This document shows, piece by piece, positions 13,447-25,661 of a stretch of 26,689 nt of DNA. Position 1 is the stretch's first letter. Every line of letters begins with the position of its first letter. The notes below the pieces were generated by a model. It did not search any database, was not told the DNA's origin, and was given only the letters and a program-made list of their open reading frames with translations. The stretch is from a virus: positions 1-26,689 of the IMG/VR virus record IMGVR_UViG_3300044858_000832; one strand, given 5' to 3'. Made by a program: the position numbers and the translations under genes.

Positions 13447-16400
13447 TTAACGTCCGCGATAGCTTATCTCACGGTTATGCATGTTAACACCGTTAGCAAT
13501 CTGAGGTAGCATTGACATAATCTCCTTCTTAGTCTGTCTGGAGACATCGCCGGTGATATTTAGGTTGAATACTTGTTGCTTTCGCTCGTCAGACATCTGT
13601 GTTTTATCTATTGTACTCAGTGTAGCTGCGCCAGACATACTGCTAGAGACTAATCCACCTTCTGCGAATTTAGCAAAGCTTCCATCATTTATAGCTGATA
13701 GAATCGGTAAGAATTTCTTTGTAGATGCCGCGTTTATGACATACTCACCATTGGACAGCATCGCTGCTATACTATCAGACGTTCCAGTCCCAGGTCCGGC
13801 TACTCTACCTCCGTTTGCCATCCATAGGCCACCCCAGTCCCAATCTGCACTCATTGTGTTAACAGAAGAACCAAAGAAGTCTGAGGTATCGATAGAAGAC
13901 CCACCAAATAACCCACCTAATACTGAACTTGCACCACCTAGTACAGAACTCGATGTACTATTGCTACCAAACAACCCATTAAAGACATTCTTAAGAATAT
14001 CCCAAGCCGTGCTAAGAACACTCTTTAGATCAGTCCAGGCAGAAGTTAATGTACCACGTAATGAAGTCCAGCCTGACGACAAAGTATAGGCAAAACCTTC
14101 ATTACCCTCTGCCAGAGCTTCTTTAGTAGCCATTGTACTATCCTCAACTAGAGCTGTGTTAGTCAGCTTATCAGCTTTCTGCAGAGCTTCCATATCAAAG
14201 ATATTAGCATTAGAAATATCAGATGCAGCTCTATTACCAATATTTAATGTCTCTTCTGTGCTTGCTATATTTTCCTTCAACACAGCACCAATATTATCAG
14301 GGGTAGACATTAAAGCTTTCTCCATAATTCTGGAGGACTTTGGTAGATTATCATTAAGCGTATTAAAGCCCAGACCTTCTAGATTCTTTCGAAGGTTGCT
14401 ACCATCCGTATCTTCTTTAGCAGCAGGTGTCTCACCTAGTATAAATTCTTTGAAGTTCGCACCAAGGCCTTTTAAGTAGCCTCCTACGCCCTCGAATTCA
14501 ACTCCTTTTCGAACTTCAAATACTTTACCAATGTTAGTGAAGCTCTGAGCCTGGCTAGCCATATATCTAGATATCATACCCTCAAAGGTGCCTTTCATAA
14601 ATGCATCTACGAAGCTCTTCACAGATACATCTATGATCCTATTAGCAAAACTAGCAGTCATAGTGCGTAGCAGAGACTCTGGTCCTTCCATCCAGTTTCT
14701 ATTACCTTTTAGGACTTCAGATATGCCACCTGACAGTGAAGATGTAAATTCAGATCCGAAAGCTATACCTAAATTTCTGGCCTCAGCTTTGATAAAGCTA
14801 CCCCATTTCAAATTAGCTAAGGATTCACCAACAGCTCTGGCGATTTGAGGCGCTACAGCTTTTTCAGTTGTACGCTGCTTTCGCTGATTCAGTGCGATTA
14901 CCCGCTTATCACCACCACCTGGTTTCTTTTCTTCAGCCTCTATAGCATCTCTAGCTTCTTCGAACCTATTAAGGTGGTATTCTATAGACTGTTCTGTCCA
15001 CTCATCTAAGTTATCGGCAACATCTTTAGTAAATCCTTTGAGTGTCTCTCTAAACTCCTGATCACCGCGACCGGCAAATGTCTTCACCACTGCATCAGAG
15101 AAGTTCATATTATCCAACTTCTCGGTGAATTTACCTTTGGTTTGCGTCGGCACCAAAGCATCTTTCTTTGATGCTGTCTTATCTAACAGATTCTGAATGC
15201 GATCTGGTGCATCACGTAGAAATTCAGCAGATCCAAATATACCACCAGTCGGTTTAAGAGCATTAGCTGCCTCATCTCTGACCTTAGCTAGTAACTTGCG
15301 GCGCTCCTCAGATGTTTCAGCCTGATAACCTAATTCGGCCGTCCTATAAGCAACCATCCTATCTTTGATCTTGGTGTACTTATCGAGAGTGTCTACTAAT
15401 TCATCACGTTCAGCACCAGTAAGCTCACCTATCTTTTCTATAGATGATGTGAATCCACTAGACTCTAATGTATTTAGTATAACATTGTTGGCGTAGCCTA
15501 AATCTAGATTGCTCATCGCTTCTCTGATTGCGTTTCCAGAATCTTCAGCAGTTCTACCAAATGCAGTTTTGATCGCATTCATAATACGATCTCTCATACC
15601 GCCAAGGCCCATCGAGTCAATTACGCCATTGAATGCCTCTAGTGCTCTATCGATGAGACCGCCTGAAGTATCAGGTTTTAGTGGCTTCTCGACTACAACG
15701 CTGGCGCCTAGCAGCTTTTCAGCATACTTAGGATCTTCTGCCCATCGCCTTCCGCCTTCCCCACGTTGTAACCCAAGCGAGAACTTGAACATATCCTCTT
15801 CAGCACCTAATGCCAGCTTATATCTACGCTTAATAAGACTAGAGTAGTCCTCTTCAAATTCTATGATATCCTTGTATACTCTAAACTTCTGGTCTTTAGG
15901 ATTACCATTAGCGTCCTTATCGCCTCGAGTTACAGACGGCTGATTCCCTACAGCAATCATATTACCTAGGTTATTACCTACAATCTTGGCACCATAACCT
16001 GTTTCTAGACCCCAATGACGGAGAATTATATCAGGACTAACACCTAAAGTTTTACCGACGCGTTCAGCTGACGTACGATATGTACGTTCAAAAAGTGCTT
16101 TACCACCTTCGCTGAAGCCAGGTAATTCTGCACCACTGTTAATCGCCTCAAGAAGACCTTGGTATTTAGCAGTAGACTTCGCATTGACAACAAATTCGCC
16201 ATTAGATAACCTTGCAAGGATACTGTCGGATGTACCTGTGCCAGCACCTTTTATAGAGCCACCGGTAGCATAAGCTTCAGGGTCTTTCCCCTCGTTACCT
16301 CTTAACATCCATTCAAAGAAATCAAACGGTAACTTAAATTTGGTCTCTCTAAATTTAGGTGCCTTATATCTAGGATTGTCTTCAAAGTGCTGAGGTTTTC

Positions 16401-19400
16401 CATATATTGCTGGATCTGGGTTGTATTGAGCTGGTACAAGATCTCTATACTTAGTGCCTAGCATCAGTGCACCAGCTGCATGTCTTAGCGTCTGTGACAT
16501 CGGACCTTTATCAGCCATCAATCTTACCATCTCATCAGACATAGCGATGCTCATTATAGAGAACGGATTCTTAGATCCATTGAACGTAGCATCGTCTGCA
16601 AAATCCCAAGCATCATCCAGAAACTTAGACTCACCGGCTGTCTCTTGCGTCAGATTGGATATGTAAGCACGCATAGCCAGCGCCATGAATGATTTACCAT
16701 CGCTGCTTATAGGGAAAGGAGCATTTGCCATCGTATGCATATACGCAAGATATTCCTCATCTACTCTGGCACCACCTATTCTGGAAGATGCATCAGCGAG
16801 GTAATTATTCATGCCTAATGCTTTGCGATTATTGAGTAACTCATGGTGTCCGAATTCATGACGGCCAATTATATACTTCAACTCGTTCTCTAACTGACTA
16901 CCTTTATTTCCAAATTTAGGATAGGCAATCATCTTATCGTTAAGACTATAGCCACCTTCAAAAGCGTCTCCTGATAACAGTCTTTTCAGGCCAGCACCTT
17001 TAACATCAGAATTCAGCCCACCGTAAAGTTTGTCAAAATCTATATTACCACCATCTGCGAACCCTGGGGACATATTCTTAAGACGATCACGTTCGTCGTA
17101 ATGCAGTTCTTTTAGAATATTACCAAATTGAGTCTTATCATTGTCGACCAGACTTTGACGAAGCCTCTTCATAAATGGCACTAGATATCCTGTATCAGCA
17201 TTAATTCCGCTAGTTAGAAACTTATTTATCTCAGAGATCGAGTCTTTCGGGCTTTCGAAGGCAGTTTGTGTGACTAAGGCAAAAATACCTTCCAGACCAG
17301 CTTCTGTAATTATAGATTCAATGCTGTCTAGAGAGTTCGTACTGCCAATAGCTTGATAATCTCTTACATCAAAGTTCTTAAACTTGCCAGCTCTCGCCTG
17401 ATAATCTCTAGCATCAAAGAATCTGTCTTTAACCATACCTCCGTTTGCAAATGCAGGTAGCCCGGAATTGATACGCTCAAGTAAATCTTTATTCTGTGAT
17501 GTAGCTTTAGCATTTACAACGTATTCACCGTTAGATAATCTGGCTAGAATACTGTCAGAAGTTCCAGTCCCTGGCCCAGTTATGTGGCCTCCAGTTGCTC
17601 TGGCTGGCAGATTATTGCCTACCGGTGGTGAACCAGGTTTGTCTGATGCCTTATCCGGTTCTGACGATCCAGAAATATACTTGATACCATAATATAGAGC
17701 CGCTCCAATTAATGCGCCGATACCTAAGATTATTGCGCCCTTAGCCGCTCCTGTAGCAGCAGCAATTAAGACCGGCAGTGAGAATATACTAGCAATAGCT
17801 GTAATGCCAATACCCACTGTAGCTATCATCTGCCTGATATAAGGTGATGTGACACCAAATACCTGCCTAAGTTCCGTAGCTAGACCCGTAAATATGCCAC
17901 CCATTAGCGGACCTAAGTTACGCCAAGTGGTTAGAACCACATTATTAGCTGTAGCCCAGGCTGCTTGTAATTGAGCTAGAAATCCCGGACCTAAGCTAGC
18001 TGACATAGCGTTACGGATATTCTGGAACATCGTAGAAAGATCCATACCTAGCACCTTAGGTGCCAGTGCTGCAATTGTTAATGCTGTACCACCAGCTGCA
18101 ACACCTCCTGCCACTGCTTCGCCTCGTGTATAATCTGAACCTTCAACTATAGGCTTATTGGAGCCAGTGAATTCTTTTATAGCATTTCTAGGTTTTACTG
18201 TTAAGGCGTCTATATGCTCTTTTATCTTCTTGCTAATGCCGTCCCATAACTCAGCCATCTTGGTAACAAATGGATCGAACATATTTTTCTTAGCAAAATC
18301 CATAGCATACAAAAATGCATCTTTAAGGCTCTGCCAGTTAGATAACGCAAGTATCAGTGCACCAACACTAATAACGAAGACACCTATCGGACTTAACAAT
18401 ATCGGCAGTGCAAATGCAACGGCAGTGCTTACAGCCGCAAGGAGCGCATTCGTAAATAGTGCAGTCATCTGGACTGCGGCAACACCTATAAATGCACCGA
18501 TGGCTTGACCTGTCAGTGCAGACGCGATGATAGTACCATATTTAGCCCATTCAGAGGACTCACCCATCCCTTTTACAATCTCAACACCTATTTGGTATCC
18601 AGCGAAAGTACCTGCAGTACCACCTATACCAGCAAACAGAGATGTAGCACCTGCCTTGAAAGCTTGCGACGATTCATCTATTTTCTTGTTTAGGCCTTTG
18701 AGTTGTGTATTAACCTCTTGTCTCGCTGATACAAAGTCAGCAATTCTAGCCGGAGATGCTCCACGCTGTCTTGCAGTAGCTAAGTCATTATCAGCGCCAG
18801 CGAGTCTTCTTTGCAGAATTTGTTGAGACAATCTATCGGTTAGCACAGAAGCTATCTTGGTAGGTCCAGTCATTACTGTCTTCAGAACGTCTGTAGCAAT
18901 ATCGCGACCTTTCTGAAACAGAAGTGCTAGCTTAGCGATAACAGTCAGAGATCCAATCATACCGGCACTACCGCCTGGGCCGCTCCCTAGAAAACCCTTG
19001 ACGATAACATCAACAAACTCTCTGAATCCAGCAATCATACGCCTAGAGGCATCAGCCACTAACTGCTTATCAAGTATCTTCTCCATATACAGGAGTAATA
19101 CCGTGGTGTACACACCGAATGTGAATGTAGGAAGCTTCTCGCCAAATATTGGGATTAGTCTCTTTGACAACGCATGTAGTGCCAGACCTATCATTGTAGA
19201 TATTGAAGCAAATACAGGTACTTGCCAATCAGAAGGTAATGCATTAAACATGTCATGTCCAGGTACTCTAAGTTCTCTACCCCTCTTCGGACCTCTAGCA
19301 ACCTTACCTTCAGGGTCTGATTCGACCATTTTGCCGAGTTTCATATACTCGAATTTAACTTTATCCTGTATACCAAGCATCTGCTTGATAGCATGAATAA

Positions 19401-21276
19401 AGGCGCTATCTGAATTATCAAACCAGGCTCTGAAATCATTCACCATAATTTGCAAAGACTTGCCGATGCTCGTAGCCAATATTGCAGTCATTATCGAGTG
19501 AAACTTCTGAACAAAATAATCTTTAATTGATTTCAAGCTACCGACTATATCATTCAGTGAGGATTTCGCACCAGATGCTAGTGCTTCCGTAACATTCTCT
19601 GGCGTCCTAGGTTTTTCCGTTAGGCTCTGTATAAGAGCTGATAGCATATTGCCATCTTGAGTATTAGCACTATTTGTACCGACATTCCTGATACCAGACT
19701 GTATGCCGACCATCGTGAAGCCACGCCTATCTGACATCCCAGAGTCCGAATAAATTCTACCCCCAGATTGCGCTCTTTTAGTCGACGGTAGGGAGGCCTC
19801 GACATCACGCCTCTTATTGACCTCCTTTATATAGGTCTTGATTGCGTCGATGCCTTTCGAAACCCCTTTACCTATTTTCGCGAAGGAGTCACTAAGTGAA
19901 TCGAATACACCTTTAAATACACCAGCTATTACAACACCTGCTGTAACAAAGGCAGTAACTATACCCTTCACCAGTGATTTGATTGAATCCATTTCCGGAA
20001 GAAAAGAGAAGGCATCTTTAAATTTCTCTTTAACGCCTGATATGTCAAACATACTACTAAACATACCTTTAATAGCCTCAATAGCATTCCTCGCGATAGA
20101 TGGTAACTTCTCGAAGAAGTCTATGGTGTCCAACATTAGGTCAATTACAGCAATCTCAAATACAGATGCATAATGTTGTATTCTCTCCGCGAACTTACCT
20201 ATGGCTACAGCCATACTATTTATTTGTTCAGCTGGTCCACCGGTGCTGCTAAAGAACAGATTGGAGATAGCTCTGAACAGCAGCAATCCAGACGTTTGCA
20301 TATTTTGAAAAGCTTGCGCAAAAGTTACACCAACTTTCTTGAACTTAGCATCCATCACTTCTGTCTGAGCAAGAATCGCTTTGAATACATCTTCAGATGT
20401 TAGCTTACCTTCTTCACCTAACTTACGCAGATCGCCCACAGCCTTGCCCATACCCTCAGCAATAGCTCTAGCTAATGCAGGAGCATTCTCGAGTACTGCT
20501 CTAAGTTCCTCTCCAGCTAACACACCAGATGCCAGACCCTGACCTAATTGCAATATAGCACTTCTAGCTTCTTGCATAGTTGTGCCGGATACAGCTAGTG
20601 ATTTACCTATCGTAGACGTCACCCTAGCTATTTCCTTCTGGCTGACACCTAGATCCCCGCTGGCCGAAGCAATTTTGGTATATAGCGTGGCAATATCTGC
20701 TAATGGTGTGCGAGTATCAACAGCAATTCTAGTTACATCTCTAAAAGCATTAGCAAACTTAGCTGTAGAACCAGCAACTAGATTTATCTTTGTGTCAATG
20801 TTAGTCAGTATGTCGGAAAATACTGCTAGTGACGCAGCTGTACCAGATGCTATGGTGACCTTTAAGAGTGTAGATGACAGTGTACCAGTACTTCTAGCAG
20901 CTTTATCTGTTACAGAGGAAAATTCAGAAACAGATTTAGAGTAGGATTGTATTTGACCAGTAGCTTTATCTATGCCATCAGCTGTGAAAGTTGTAGGACG
21001 ACGAAGAGAATTTTTCACCTTATCGATTTCTCTACCAAGCTTTTGCACATTAGATGTAGCAGTACCAGTCGCAACCTCGGCTTTGTTACCTTTAAGATCT
21101 GCTTTGAACTTAGAGGTCGAGTCCTTAATTCTATCTACTTTCTTTTGAGCGTCATCTGAATTAATCTTTATATCTACGCTCTTTACATTATCTAAGCCTC
21201 TTAACTTGTTTCTTAATCTGTCGACGGTAGAATTAGCTTTCTTACCATCTACTAGTACTTCTAATTCTATTGACAT
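13447..21276 (-). CDS. Tape measure protein with metallopeptidase-like and glucosaminidase-like domains
   Basis: A 2609-residue tape measure protein that sets tail length and is ejected ahead of the DNA. The frame can be extended to a TTG at 21288, but GGAG lies six bases before the ATG at 21276, so I use the latter. Domains: a charged N-terminal helix (1-170); the classic tape-measure domain (~179-324, RTPLADIATLYTKIASASGD, QEARSAILQLGQGLASG); hydrophobic, membrane-like segments at ~435-462, 686-732, 876-977, 1055-1075 and 1145-1200. Repeat 1 is at 1227-1280. An HExxH region follows with HEFGH at 1473-1477 and E1507/E1508 downstream. Repeat 2 is at 1670-1725. A glucosaminidase-like domain spans ~1727-1860 (GLETGYG with E1758, NNLGN, WAEDPKYAEKL). 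Helical regions follow, then repeat 3 at 2487-2541. Terminators flank the gene on both sides. Confidence 0.95.
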   Translation of the reverse strand: MSIELEVLVDGKKANSTVDRLRNKLRGLDNVKSVDIKINSDDAQKKVDRIKDSTSKFKADLKGNKAEVATGTATSNVQKLGREIDKVKNSLRRPTTFTADGIDKATGQIQSYSKSVSEFSSVTDKAARSTGTLSSTLLKVTIASGTAASLAVFSDILTNIDTKINLVAGSTAKFANAFRDVTRIAVDTRTPLADIATLYTKIASASGDLGVSQKEIARVTSTIGKSLAVSGTTMQEARSAILQLGQGLASGVLAGEELRAVLENAPALARAIAEGMGKAVGDLRKLGEEGKLTSEDVFKAILAQTEVMDAKFKKVGVTFAQAFQNMQTSGLLLFRAISNLFFSSTGGPAEQINSMAVAIGKFAERIQHYASVFEIAVIDLMLDTIDFFEKLPSIARNAIEAIKGMFSSMFDISGVKEKFKDAFSFLPEMDSIKSLVKGIVTAFVTAGVVIAGVFKGVFDSLSDSFAKIGKGVSKGIDAIKTYIKEVNKRRDVEASLPSTKRAQSGGRIYSDSGMSDRRGFTMVGIQSGIRNVGTNSANTQDGNMLSALIQSLTEKPRTPENVTEALASGAKSSLNDIVGSLKSIKDYFVQKFHSIMTAILATSIGKSLQIMVNDFRAWFDNSDSAFIHAIKQMLGIQDKVKFEYMKLGKMVESDPEGKVARGPKRGRELRVPGHDMFNALPSDWQVPVFASISTMIGLALHALSKRLIPIFGEKLPTFTFGVYTTVLLLYMEKILDKQLVADASRRMIAGFREFVDVIVKGFLGSGPGGSAGMIGSLTVIAKLALLFQKGRDIATDVLKTVMTGPTKIASVLTDRLSQQILQRRLAGADNDLATARQRGASPARIADFVSARQEVNTQLKGLNKKIDESSQAFKAGATSLFAGIGGTAGTFAGYQIGVEIVKGMGESSEWAKYGTIIASALTGQAIGAFIGVAAVQMTALFTNALLAAVSTAVAFALPILLSPIGVFVISVGALILALSNWQSLKDAFLYAMDFAKKNMFDPFVTKMAELWDGISKKIKEHIDALTVKPRNAIKEFTGSNKPIVEGSDYTRGEAVAGGVAAGGTALTIAALAPKVLGMDLSTMFQNIRNAMSASLGPGFLAQLQAAWATANNVVLTTWRNLGPLMGGIFTGLATELRQVFGVTSPYIRQMIATVGIGITAIASIFSLPVLIAAATGAAKGAIILGIGALIGAALYYGIKYISGSSEPDKASDKPGSPPVGNNLPARATGGHITGPGTGTSDSILARLSNGEYVVNAKATSQNKDLLERINSGLPAFANGGMVKDRFFDARDYQARAGKFKNFDVRDYQAIGSTNSLDSIESIITEAGLEGIFALVTQTAFESPKDSISEINKFLTSGINADTGYLVPFMKRLRQSLVDNDKTQFGNILKELHYDERDRLKNMSPGFADGGNIDFDKLYGGLNSDVKGAGLKRLLSGDAFEGGYSLNDKMIAYPKFGNKGSQLENELKYIIGRHEFGHHELLNNRKALGMNNYLADASSRIGGARVDEEYLAYMHTMANAPFPISSDGKSFMALAMRAYISNLTQETAGESKFLDDAWDFADDATFNGSKNPFSIMSIAMSDEMVRLMADKGPMSQTLRHAAGALMLGTKYRDLVPAQYNPDPAIYGKPQHFEDNPRYKAPKFRETKFKLPFDFFEWMLRGNEGKDPEAYATGGSIKGAGTGTSDSILARLSNGEFVVNAKSTAKYQGLLEAINSGAELPGFSEGGKALFERTYRTSAERVGKTLGVSPDIILRHWGLETGYGAKIVGNNLGNMIAVGNQPSVTRGDKDANGNPKDQKFRVYKDIIEFEEDYSSLIKRRYKLALGAEEDMFKFSLGLQRGEGGRRWAEDPKYAEKLLGASVVVEKPLKPDTSGGLIDRALEAFNGVIDSMGLGGMRDRIMNAIKTAFGRTAEDSGNAIREAMSNLDLGYANNVILNTLESSGFTSSIEKIGELTGAERDELVDTLDKYTKIKDRMVAYRTAELGYQAETSEERRKLLAKVRDEAANALKPTGGIFGSAEFLRDAPDRIQNLLDKTASKKDALVPTQTKGKFTEKLDNMNFSDAVVKTFAGRGDQEFRETLKGFTKDVADNLDEWTEQSIEYHLNRFEEARDAIEAEEKKPGGGDKRVIALNQRKQRTTEKAVAPQIARAVGESLANLKWGSFIKAEARNLGIAFGSEFTSSLSGGISEVLKGNRNWMEGPESLLRTMTASFANRIIDVSVKSFVDAFMKGTFEGMISRYMASQAQSFTNIGKVFEVRKGVEFEGVGGYLKGLGANFKEFILGETPAAKEDTDGSNLRKNLEGLGFNTLNDNLPKSSRIMEKALMSTPDNIGAVLKENIASTEETLNIGNRAASDISNANIFDMEALQKADKLTNTALVEDSTMATKEALAEGNEGFAYTLSSGWTSLRGTLTSAWTDLKSVLSTAWDILKNVFNGLFGSNSTSSSVLGGASSVLGGLFGGSSIDTSDFFGSSVNTMSADWDWGGLWMANGGRVAGPGTGTSDSIAAMLSNGEYVINAASTKKFLPILSAINDGSFAKFAEGGLVSSSMSGAATLSTIDKTQMSDERKQQVFNLNITGDVSRQTKKEIMSMLPQIANGVNMHNREISYRGR
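13654..13818 (-). repeat. Tape measure module, copy 3
   Basis: Residues 2487-2541 of the tape measure read A-NGG-RVAGPGTGTSDSI, then LSNGEYVINAASTKKF, and end in FAEGG. It is homologous to the copies at 16102-16269 and 17437-17598. Motifs of this kind are frequent in phage tape measure proteins. This copy is the most divergent and lies near the C-terminus. Confidence 0.85.
16102..16269 (-). repeat. Tape measure module, copy 2
   Basis: Residues 1670-1725 read ATGGSIKGAGTGTSDSILAR, then LSNGEFVVNAKSTAKY, ending in FSEGG. It separates the HExxH region from the glucosaminidase-like domain. Confidence 0.88.
17437..17598 (-). repeat. Tape measure module, copy 1
   Basis: Residues 1227-1280 read ATGGHITGPGTGTSDSILAR, then LSNGEYVVNAKATSQNK, ending in FANGG. 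It follows the last hydrophobic cluster and precedes the HExxH region. Confidence 0.88.
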
Positions 21277-24461: not shown

Positions 24462-25661
24462 TTACGAGTGGAAGACCGGGAGAATACCAAGGCTCAGAGC
24501 AGAGCTATACTTACGCTGCCACACACCTTGCACATAGGCCGGAGTACCAGTGACCAGACCGTCAGTAGCGGCGGTAAGGGCAACATAAGCGGCATTTTCC
24601 ACAACTTCCTTGTAGTCAGCATCAGACGCGAAAGCATCTTCGCTACCAGCCCAGGTGTAACCAGCCGGATGAGCGATGTAGCCCCAGCGATACCAAATTT
24701 CAGTAGTACCACCACCCTTGTAGGCAGAAGGCGAACGCGCCATTTCAACCGGAGTAGGAACGGCCAGAGCGTTAAAGTTGATCGAGCCAGGCAGCACGAT
24801 GAAGCTGGTCTTCGTACCAGTGATATCAACACCAGGACCAGTGTTCAGCTTAGTCAGCTCGGCGCTAGACATAGACTGAGTGGCTCTAGTCAAGATAAGA
24901 CGAAACTTACCCTGGAAGATCGTCTGAAAGTCAACACCAGCTTCGCTAACCTTATCCTGATCCACCAGATTGGCGGAACGGAAAGAAGCCATAACTTCGG
25001 GGCTAGTAACCAGGTAGGCGTACGACGGTTCGTAATCCTTCCAACCCTTACCCATAGCTTGCAGGAAGCCTTCTGCACGAGCAGCGCCCTGAATAATAGC
25101 GGTAGCGTCAACGACAGCCTTAGCCGAACCAAGATCCACGTAGAAGCCATACTTCTTGTCCGTAGGGTCATTATCAAACGTCTGACCACCCAGACCATTA
25201 GCGCCTTGAGCCTTACCAGCACCATTAAGGGCTTCGGTAATAGCAACGCCCTTAAGCACAGCCAGAAGAGCGTTATGCTCGTCTTGAGTACGCGTCTCGG
25301 AGAAGTCACGACCAATCTTAGCCAGACCATCTTCCTGCGTAACGACCTGCTTCATGTTGACCTTCTCAGCGCCATGCGTGCGAACGGTCTTGACATACTT
25401 CAGGAACTCGCTGTCTTGCGTGGTCTTAGTACCAGCGGTGCTGTCAGAAATCGACGCAACGTTGATGGTAGGATTCAGCGGCTTTCTCCAGCGAAGCTGA
25501 CCAATGTAGGTCTCGGTATCGACGTTGATCTCAGGATTCGAGACAGCAATACCAGTACCAACCAGTTTCTTAGCACTGGTGTAAGCTTCGTCAGCGTAAG
25601 CACCAATTGCCTCTTGCAGAACGGTGTCAGTTGCACCGGTAATAGACTTTGTAGCGGACAT
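24462..25661 (-). CDS. Major capsid protein
   Basis: A 399-residue protein following the scaffold, with AAGGA six bases before ATG. It begins SATKSITGATDTVLQEAIGA and contains EKVNMKQVVTQEDGLAKIGR, LVTSPEVMASFRSAN, and the C-terminal block EIWYRWGYIAHPAGYTWAG, which is characteristic of a HK97-fold phage capsid group (I recall it as the Gp13-like group; to be confirmed by search). No N-terminal protease-processing region is obvious, since the scaffold is a separate gene. Codon use is strongly biased to GC-richer codons and almost lacks TTA, CTA and TCA, consistent with very high expression. As a by-product a long open frame exists on the opposite strand. Confidence 0.88.
   Translation of the reverse strand: MSATKSITGATDTVLQEAIGAYADEAYTSAKKLVGTGIAVSNPEINVDTETYIGQLRWRKPLNPTINVASISDSTAGTKTTQDSEFLKYVKTVRTHGAEKVNMKQVVTQEDGLAKIGRDFSETRTQDEHNALLAVLKGVAITEALNGAGKAQGANGLGGQTFDNDPTDKKYGFYVDLGSAKAVVDATAIIQGAARAEGFLQAMGKGWKDYEPSYAYLVTSPEVMASFRSANLVDQDKVSEAGVDFQTIFQGKFRLILTRATQSMSSAELTKLNTGPGVDITGTKTSFIVLPGSINFNALAVPTPVEMARSPSAYKGGGTTEIWYRWGYIAHPAGYTWAGSEDAFASDADYKEVVENAAYVALTAATDGLVTGTPAYVQGVWQRKYSSALSLGILPVFHS

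Follow-up and report, generated by a model that had tools for sequence, protein, structure and literature searches.

A predicted gluzincin-like metallopeptidase module between linker repeats of a siphovirus tape measure protein

Organization of the tape measure protein

The window, i.e. the entire stretch of DNA analyzed here, is a virus record of 26,689 bp (IMGVR_UViG_3300044858_000832) whose minus strand carries siphovirus tail genes. One of these, at 13447..21276 (−), encodes the tape measure protein (TMP), which determines tail length; it has 2609 aa and was recognized by TMP_3 (E = 1e-53), TIGR02675 and many PHROGs tape measure families; the start was placed at the ATG at 21276, with a TTG four codons upstream as a possible alternative. 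Following the protein from its N-terminus (all features are on the minus strand), domain search identified the TMP_3 domain at aa 154-336 (20269..20817), and a Kyte-Doolittle profile placed the last hydrophobic stretch ahead of the repeats at aa 1149-1199 (17680..17832). A repeat unit of ~62 aa with the signature GxGTGTSDSI (hereinafter, the GTGTSDSI repeat) is present in three copies, at aa 1224-1285 (17422..17607), aa 1667-1730 (16087..16278) and aa 2484-2546 (13639..13827). Between copies 1 and 2 lie a variable module of 127 aa (aa 1284-1410; 17047..17427) and a module of 256 aa (aa 1411-1666; 16279..17046) that is predicted to be a gluzincin-like metallopeptidase; copy 2 is followed by a GH73/FlgJ-like glucosaminidase domain detected by domain search (aa 1736-1856; 15709..16071). 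The HExxH cassette is accordingly located downstream of the last hydrophobic stretch (aa 1149-1199) and upstream of GH73 (from aa 1736).

Counted from the ATG at 21276, HEFGH occupies residues 1473-1477 (16846..16860) and DEEYLAY residues 1506-1512 (16741..16761), so that E1507 or E1508, the candidate third zinc ligands, are found where the original prediction had put them. The same prediction treated a segment of ~390 residues as a single unit, which did not hold: the segment consists of two modules, and its proposed boundary at 16102 falls inside repeat copy 2 (16087-16278).

Outside the TMP gene, the predicted capsid protein of the window (24462-25661, minus strand) is 99.7% identical to that of a 75-kb relative, G001, whereas some tail genes of the two are only about 42% identical, indicating strong mosaicism. 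The next capsid relatives are those of EBPR siphovirus 1 (55%) and the Naomviridae DSS3_VP1/PM1 (42%).

Conservation of the HExxH module

The sole close relative found for the HExxH module is in a 75 kb record, IMGVR_UViG_3300042553_000326 (L002). Identity between the two TMPs is 95% over aa 1411-1666 but only 58-82% over the TMP_3, middle and GH73 regions; repeat 2, at 94%, is the exception to that range, and apart from it the module is the best conserved large piece of the protein. The substitutions in the module are overwhelmingly silent (dN = 0.030, dS = 1.03, omega = 0.03), and L002 retains HEFGH with both histidines as well as both glutamates of the E1507/E1508 pair, so that H1473, E1474, H1477 and a downstream Glu are all conserved in this homologue. 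The L002 counterpart of aa 1284-1410, in contrast, is an unrelated stretch of 302 aa. Given the 95% identity and the omega of 0.03 next to a replaced neighbor, the HExxH module stands, as judged from sequence comparison, as a unit of its own on which purifying selection acts strongly; so many silent sites have changed that recent shared ancestry alone does not account for the similarity.

The upstream module of the window (aa 1284-1410) is unclassified, and so is the 302-aa module that substitutes for it (L002:7173-8078, plus strand), which is carried by L006 and L079 as well.

Recurrence of HExGH motifs in repeat-bracketed slots

The GTGTSDSI repeat, for which no Pfam family was reported, is carried by 803 phage records, mostly in the TMPs of mycobacteriophages and Gordonia phages, and a search of 399 genomes of the phylum with the repeat pattern gave no match. 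In IMG/VR, a degenerate repeat scan combined with a second scan yielded at least 132 ORFs with the repeat; among the matches listed, at least 27 ORFs contained two or more copies and at least 5 contained three. The three-repeat TMPs among the matches listed (those of the window, L002, L049, L039 and L173) comprise three module families, namely window/L002, L039/L173 and L049, and in 5/5 of them the first inter-repeat segment includes HExGH (HEFGH in the window and L002, HELGH in L049, HEIGH in L039 and L173). Among the matches listed, none of the 22 two-repeat ORFs has HExGH between its repeats. Elsewhere in the listed repeat ORFs, HExxH was seen only as HELIH in L075 and as HEIGH in L133. The latter is a fragmentary contig from the L039 family whose sequence begins within the module, with the motif just ahead of its first retained repeat. 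The L075 site belongs to a 1298-aa inter-repeat segment (L075:2462-6355, minus strand) that combines a methyltransferase-like stretch, HELIH and possible lysozyme-like parts in one TMP.

In single-sequence comparison, the three HExGH families showed no significant mutual similarity. HExGH was found in 3 of the 10 sequence-independent inter-repeat clusters, whereas 20,000 shuffles never reached two, so the motif is present well beyond chance. When whole TMPs were shuffled preserving composition, any HExxH arose in 0.85% of cases. Cultured phages with the repeat lack HExxH in their TMPs (PJ16, Bas82, Pan1, Tourach, R5C, ShedlockHolmes, Marinitoga virus 2 and 9NA), as does EBPR siphovirus 1, the TMP of which has one, C-terminal repeat.

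Other inter-repeat slots hold a pesticin-type lysozyme (L066, L169 and L170), an SLT transglycosylase (L053), a weak match to a phage lysozyme (L063) or, in the cultured mycobacteriophage Tourach, an NlpC/P60 domain between two TMP repeats; some have no recognizable domain. In L049, an SLT transglycosylase lies downstream of the HExGH module, and in 2/3 families the HExGH module adjoins a glycosidase. On the strength of the lysozyme, SLT and NlpC/P60 matches in other slots, the inter-repeat slot is a predicted enzyme position whose recognized occupants act on the cell wall, and the HExxH module, as a predicted enzyme between TMP linker repeats, occupies the same kind of position. The repeat seems to serve both as a linker and as an exchange point.

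The HEIGH module of L039 and L173 (aa 3034-3602 of the TMP ORF at L039:651-12824; L173:2897-4603, minus strand) opens with MSRRNFLKLSGVAVADVAG; this stretch, located in the interior of the TMP, resembles a twin-arginine (TAT) signal (SRRNFLK), and the match of the module start to Pfam TAT_signal was below the cut-off. This start would fit an extracytoplasmic origin of the L039/L173 family, and the module gives the impression of a complete exported protein that was taken up between two repeats.

Sequence and structure searches

The profile search suggested in the original prediction left the module without a family: no match was found in Pfam even at E = 10, nor in PHROGs, NCBIfam or PDB sequences, and Pfam peptidase families including M78, M48, U49, M90 and the polyvalent zincins gave no profile match above the cut-off. 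A tblastn search of phage and plasmid collections with the module retrieved nothing, and the alignment profile used in the genome search (A1) had no match in 385 alphaproteobacterial genomes. Scans with degenerate patterns (HEFGHHE, HE[hydrophobic]GHHEL and HExGH...E) returned M78, U49 and other zincins, with no homologue beyond the motif. Two candidates were rejected: the lone match of the module in genome contigs (L019) was due to chance, lying antisense to a formate-dehydrogenase-like gene, and an M78-type match (L020) was the nearest in motif spacing, with no homology beyond the motif.

Four small phage proteins of 158-175 aa (L150, L151, L154 and L162) contain the similar pattern HELGHHE...EEEF.AW; this family had no Pfam match above the cut-off, and its PHROGs metallo-protease matches were only marginal. 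Another phage protein, of 519 aa (L164:3068-4624, minus strand), joins an M48-like HELGHHE region to an InPase domain in the manner of polyvalent proteins. The four small proteins were added as remote members in alignments A4 and A6. Comparison of the A1 and A4 profiles gave a 54% probability over 21 columns, covering the motif only, and PDB sequence searches with the A6 and A4 profiles found no peptidase.

AlphaFold prediction from the two true family members only produced a poor model (pLDDT 37), and no peptidase was among its fold matches. With A6, the best model reached pLDDT 54 and pTM 0.52, and only 1/5 models exceeded pLDDT 43. This model consists of a helix (10-23), three strands (28-32, 38-40 and 45-49), a helix bearing HExxH at 69-73 (57-78) and a helix bearing E103/E104 (99-113), so that in this weak model E1507/E1508, aligned to the EE of the HELGHHE phage proteins, are on a predicted helix. 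The top six PDB fold matches (jannalysin, PprI, selecase, ArdC, jannalysin and selecase) are all of the metallopeptidase fold, although none is significant (E = 0.7-2); viral fold matches, likewise not significant, included proteins named peptidase, lethal factor and SprT-like. Since the two-member model was poor and matched no peptidase, the four remote proteins appear to have driven the fold, and there is some circularity in the model: the sequences that were added are zincin-like in their own right, and their resemblance to the window lies mainly at the motif. Thus, the structure prediction and structural search called for in the original prediction recovered the zincin order of core elements, with gluzincins as the best PDB matches, but at pLDDT 54 and a best E of 0.7; the model counts as support for a gluzincin fold, not as proof.

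Taken at the level of the motif, the module has the HExxH of the gluzincin clan MA(E). The gluzincin-like reading of HExxH...E gains from purifying selection, from the recurrence of HExGH in the same slot and from the zincin-order model, and is held back by the weakness of that model and by the fact that no library names a family. The latter two features would also suit a module that is catalytically dead or structural and whose HExxH is accidental or a relic, but we consider this very unlikely because omega is 0.03, all four candidate residues are kept, and unrelated families share HExGH in the corresponding slot, an outcome that shuffling fails to reproduce.

Possible functions of the module

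Starting from the observed motif, selection, same-slot recurrence and hydrolases in other slots, we infer the fold, zinc binding, ejection and substrate of the module. We judge it marginally probable that aa 1411-1666 are a gluzincin-like zinc metallopeptidase cassette that is ejected with the TMP and cuts peptide bonds in the host envelope beside GH73. TMPs exit the tail at infection. Under this scenario, each enzyme, bracketed by ~62-aa GTGTSDSI repeats in the enzyme slot of the TMP, would leave the tail with it; the cassette would fold in the host envelope, coordinate zinc by H1473, H1477 and either E1507 or E1508, and hydrolyze peptide bonds, E1474 acting as general base, while the neighboring GH73 cuts glycan strands, so that a path for the DNA is opened. 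It is the occupants of the other slots that make peptide-bond cleavage in the host envelope the likeliest role. Cutting of peptidoglycan crosslinks, one of the activities originally proposed, is possible given the context; it is not favored over a protein substrate because we know of no established HExxH-type peptidoglycan (cell-wall) endopeptidase, and the cell-wall metallopeptidase families known to us are not HExxH.

The main rival of the envelope-acting reading, which we regard as rather unlikely, is that the same metallopeptidase fold has the TMP itself as its substrate, whereby cleavage in the tail or at ejection frees the muralytic part. The module is suitably placed, after the last hydrophobic stretch (aa 1149-1199) and ahead of GH73 (aa 1736); T5 pb2 is cut, by whichever protease, after R1127, between a hydrophobic stretch and a muralytic metallopeptidase motif (PMC10038345), and self-processing has been proposed for polyvalent-protein zincin domains, such as that of P1 DdrB (PMC5512222). 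However, TMPs with two repeats and one enzyme do without a protease of this kind, and no conserved site of cleavage emerged. A broader version, unlikely in our estimate, is that the repeat-bracketed slot is exchangeable and has independently recruited three unrelated HExGH gluzincins, always as an extra cassette ahead of another enzyme or module, with the peptidase serving on board to release the muralytic domain that follows it when the TMP is ejected.

It is also highly improbable that the peptidase is an ejected effector that accompanies the DNA into the cytoplasm to cleave a host protein. No domain is more common in polyvalent proteins than the zincin type, for which host proteins may be the targets in some cases (PMC5512222); furthermore, ArdC is among the fold matches of the module. 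Yet the neighboring slots hold cell-wall enzymes and no cytoplasmic effectors, and an extracytoplasmic ancestor is suggested by the TAT-like export signal with which the L039/L173 module opens.

Relation to known systems

The metallopeptidase of T5 pb2 is, we presume, of the M23/LAS kind and not HExxH. Both T5 pb2 and P23-45 gp96 are TMPs with metallopeptidase motifs (PMC10038345, PMC10770324), and T5 pb2 resembles the window TMP in that its metallopeptidase domain follows hydrophobic stretches; the T5 domain is muralytic and is cleaved away from the rest (PMC10038345). The module described here differs from both in that it lies between GTGTSDSI repeats, ahead of a separate GH73 domain. In mycobacteriophage TM4, the mt3 motif is a TMP hydrolase motif with demonstrated peptidoglycan-degrading activity (PMC1796659) and so, as predicted here, an enzyme module inside a TMP that aids entry, whereas no library places our module in a wall-hydrolase family.

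The zincin domains of polyvalent proteins (P1 DdrB, N4 virion RNAP, ArdC) have HExxH, a Glu on the next helix and a three-stranded core (PMC5512222). The module, according to the weak model, would have the same order of core elements and, like them, belongs to a phage protein of very large size that is delivered upon infection, but the polyvalent proteins are head-packaged or conjugatively transferred, whereas the host protein here is a TMP_3 TMP with GH73, outside the class as defined by ArdC-N, DdrB or RNAP-type partners and head packaging or transfer. Tape measure proteins are not mentioned in the polyvalent-protein paper (PMC5512222). The minigluzincins (jannalysin, selecase and abylysin) and M78 IrrE/PprI share the core order of the model and HExxH...E; unlike the module, they are free-standing cellular proteins, and their sequence and fold scores to it are not significant.

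The original prediction knew of no standard account of such a combination, and was correct only in part. Both ingredients have been published, but separately, metallopeptidase motifs for TMPs and zincins for ejected phage proteins; titles and abstracts from the open-licence full-text literature on TMPs with zincin or HExxH contained nothing on the two together. Thus, the general idea is already known, and the HExxH peptidase type in this TMP position appears to be undescribed. That unrelated TMPs have HExGH in one and the same slot suggests that, in some phages, protein-cutting and glycan-cutting tools are brought together through the envelope or the TMP is processed by an on-board protease. 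The module is compact and expressible, with named candidate catalytic residues, making the substrate of a TMP peptidase directly testable. The GTGTSDSI repeat may be used as a marker for finding further ejected enzymes; some repeat-bearing TMPs are annotated as 'endolysin' in RefSeq.
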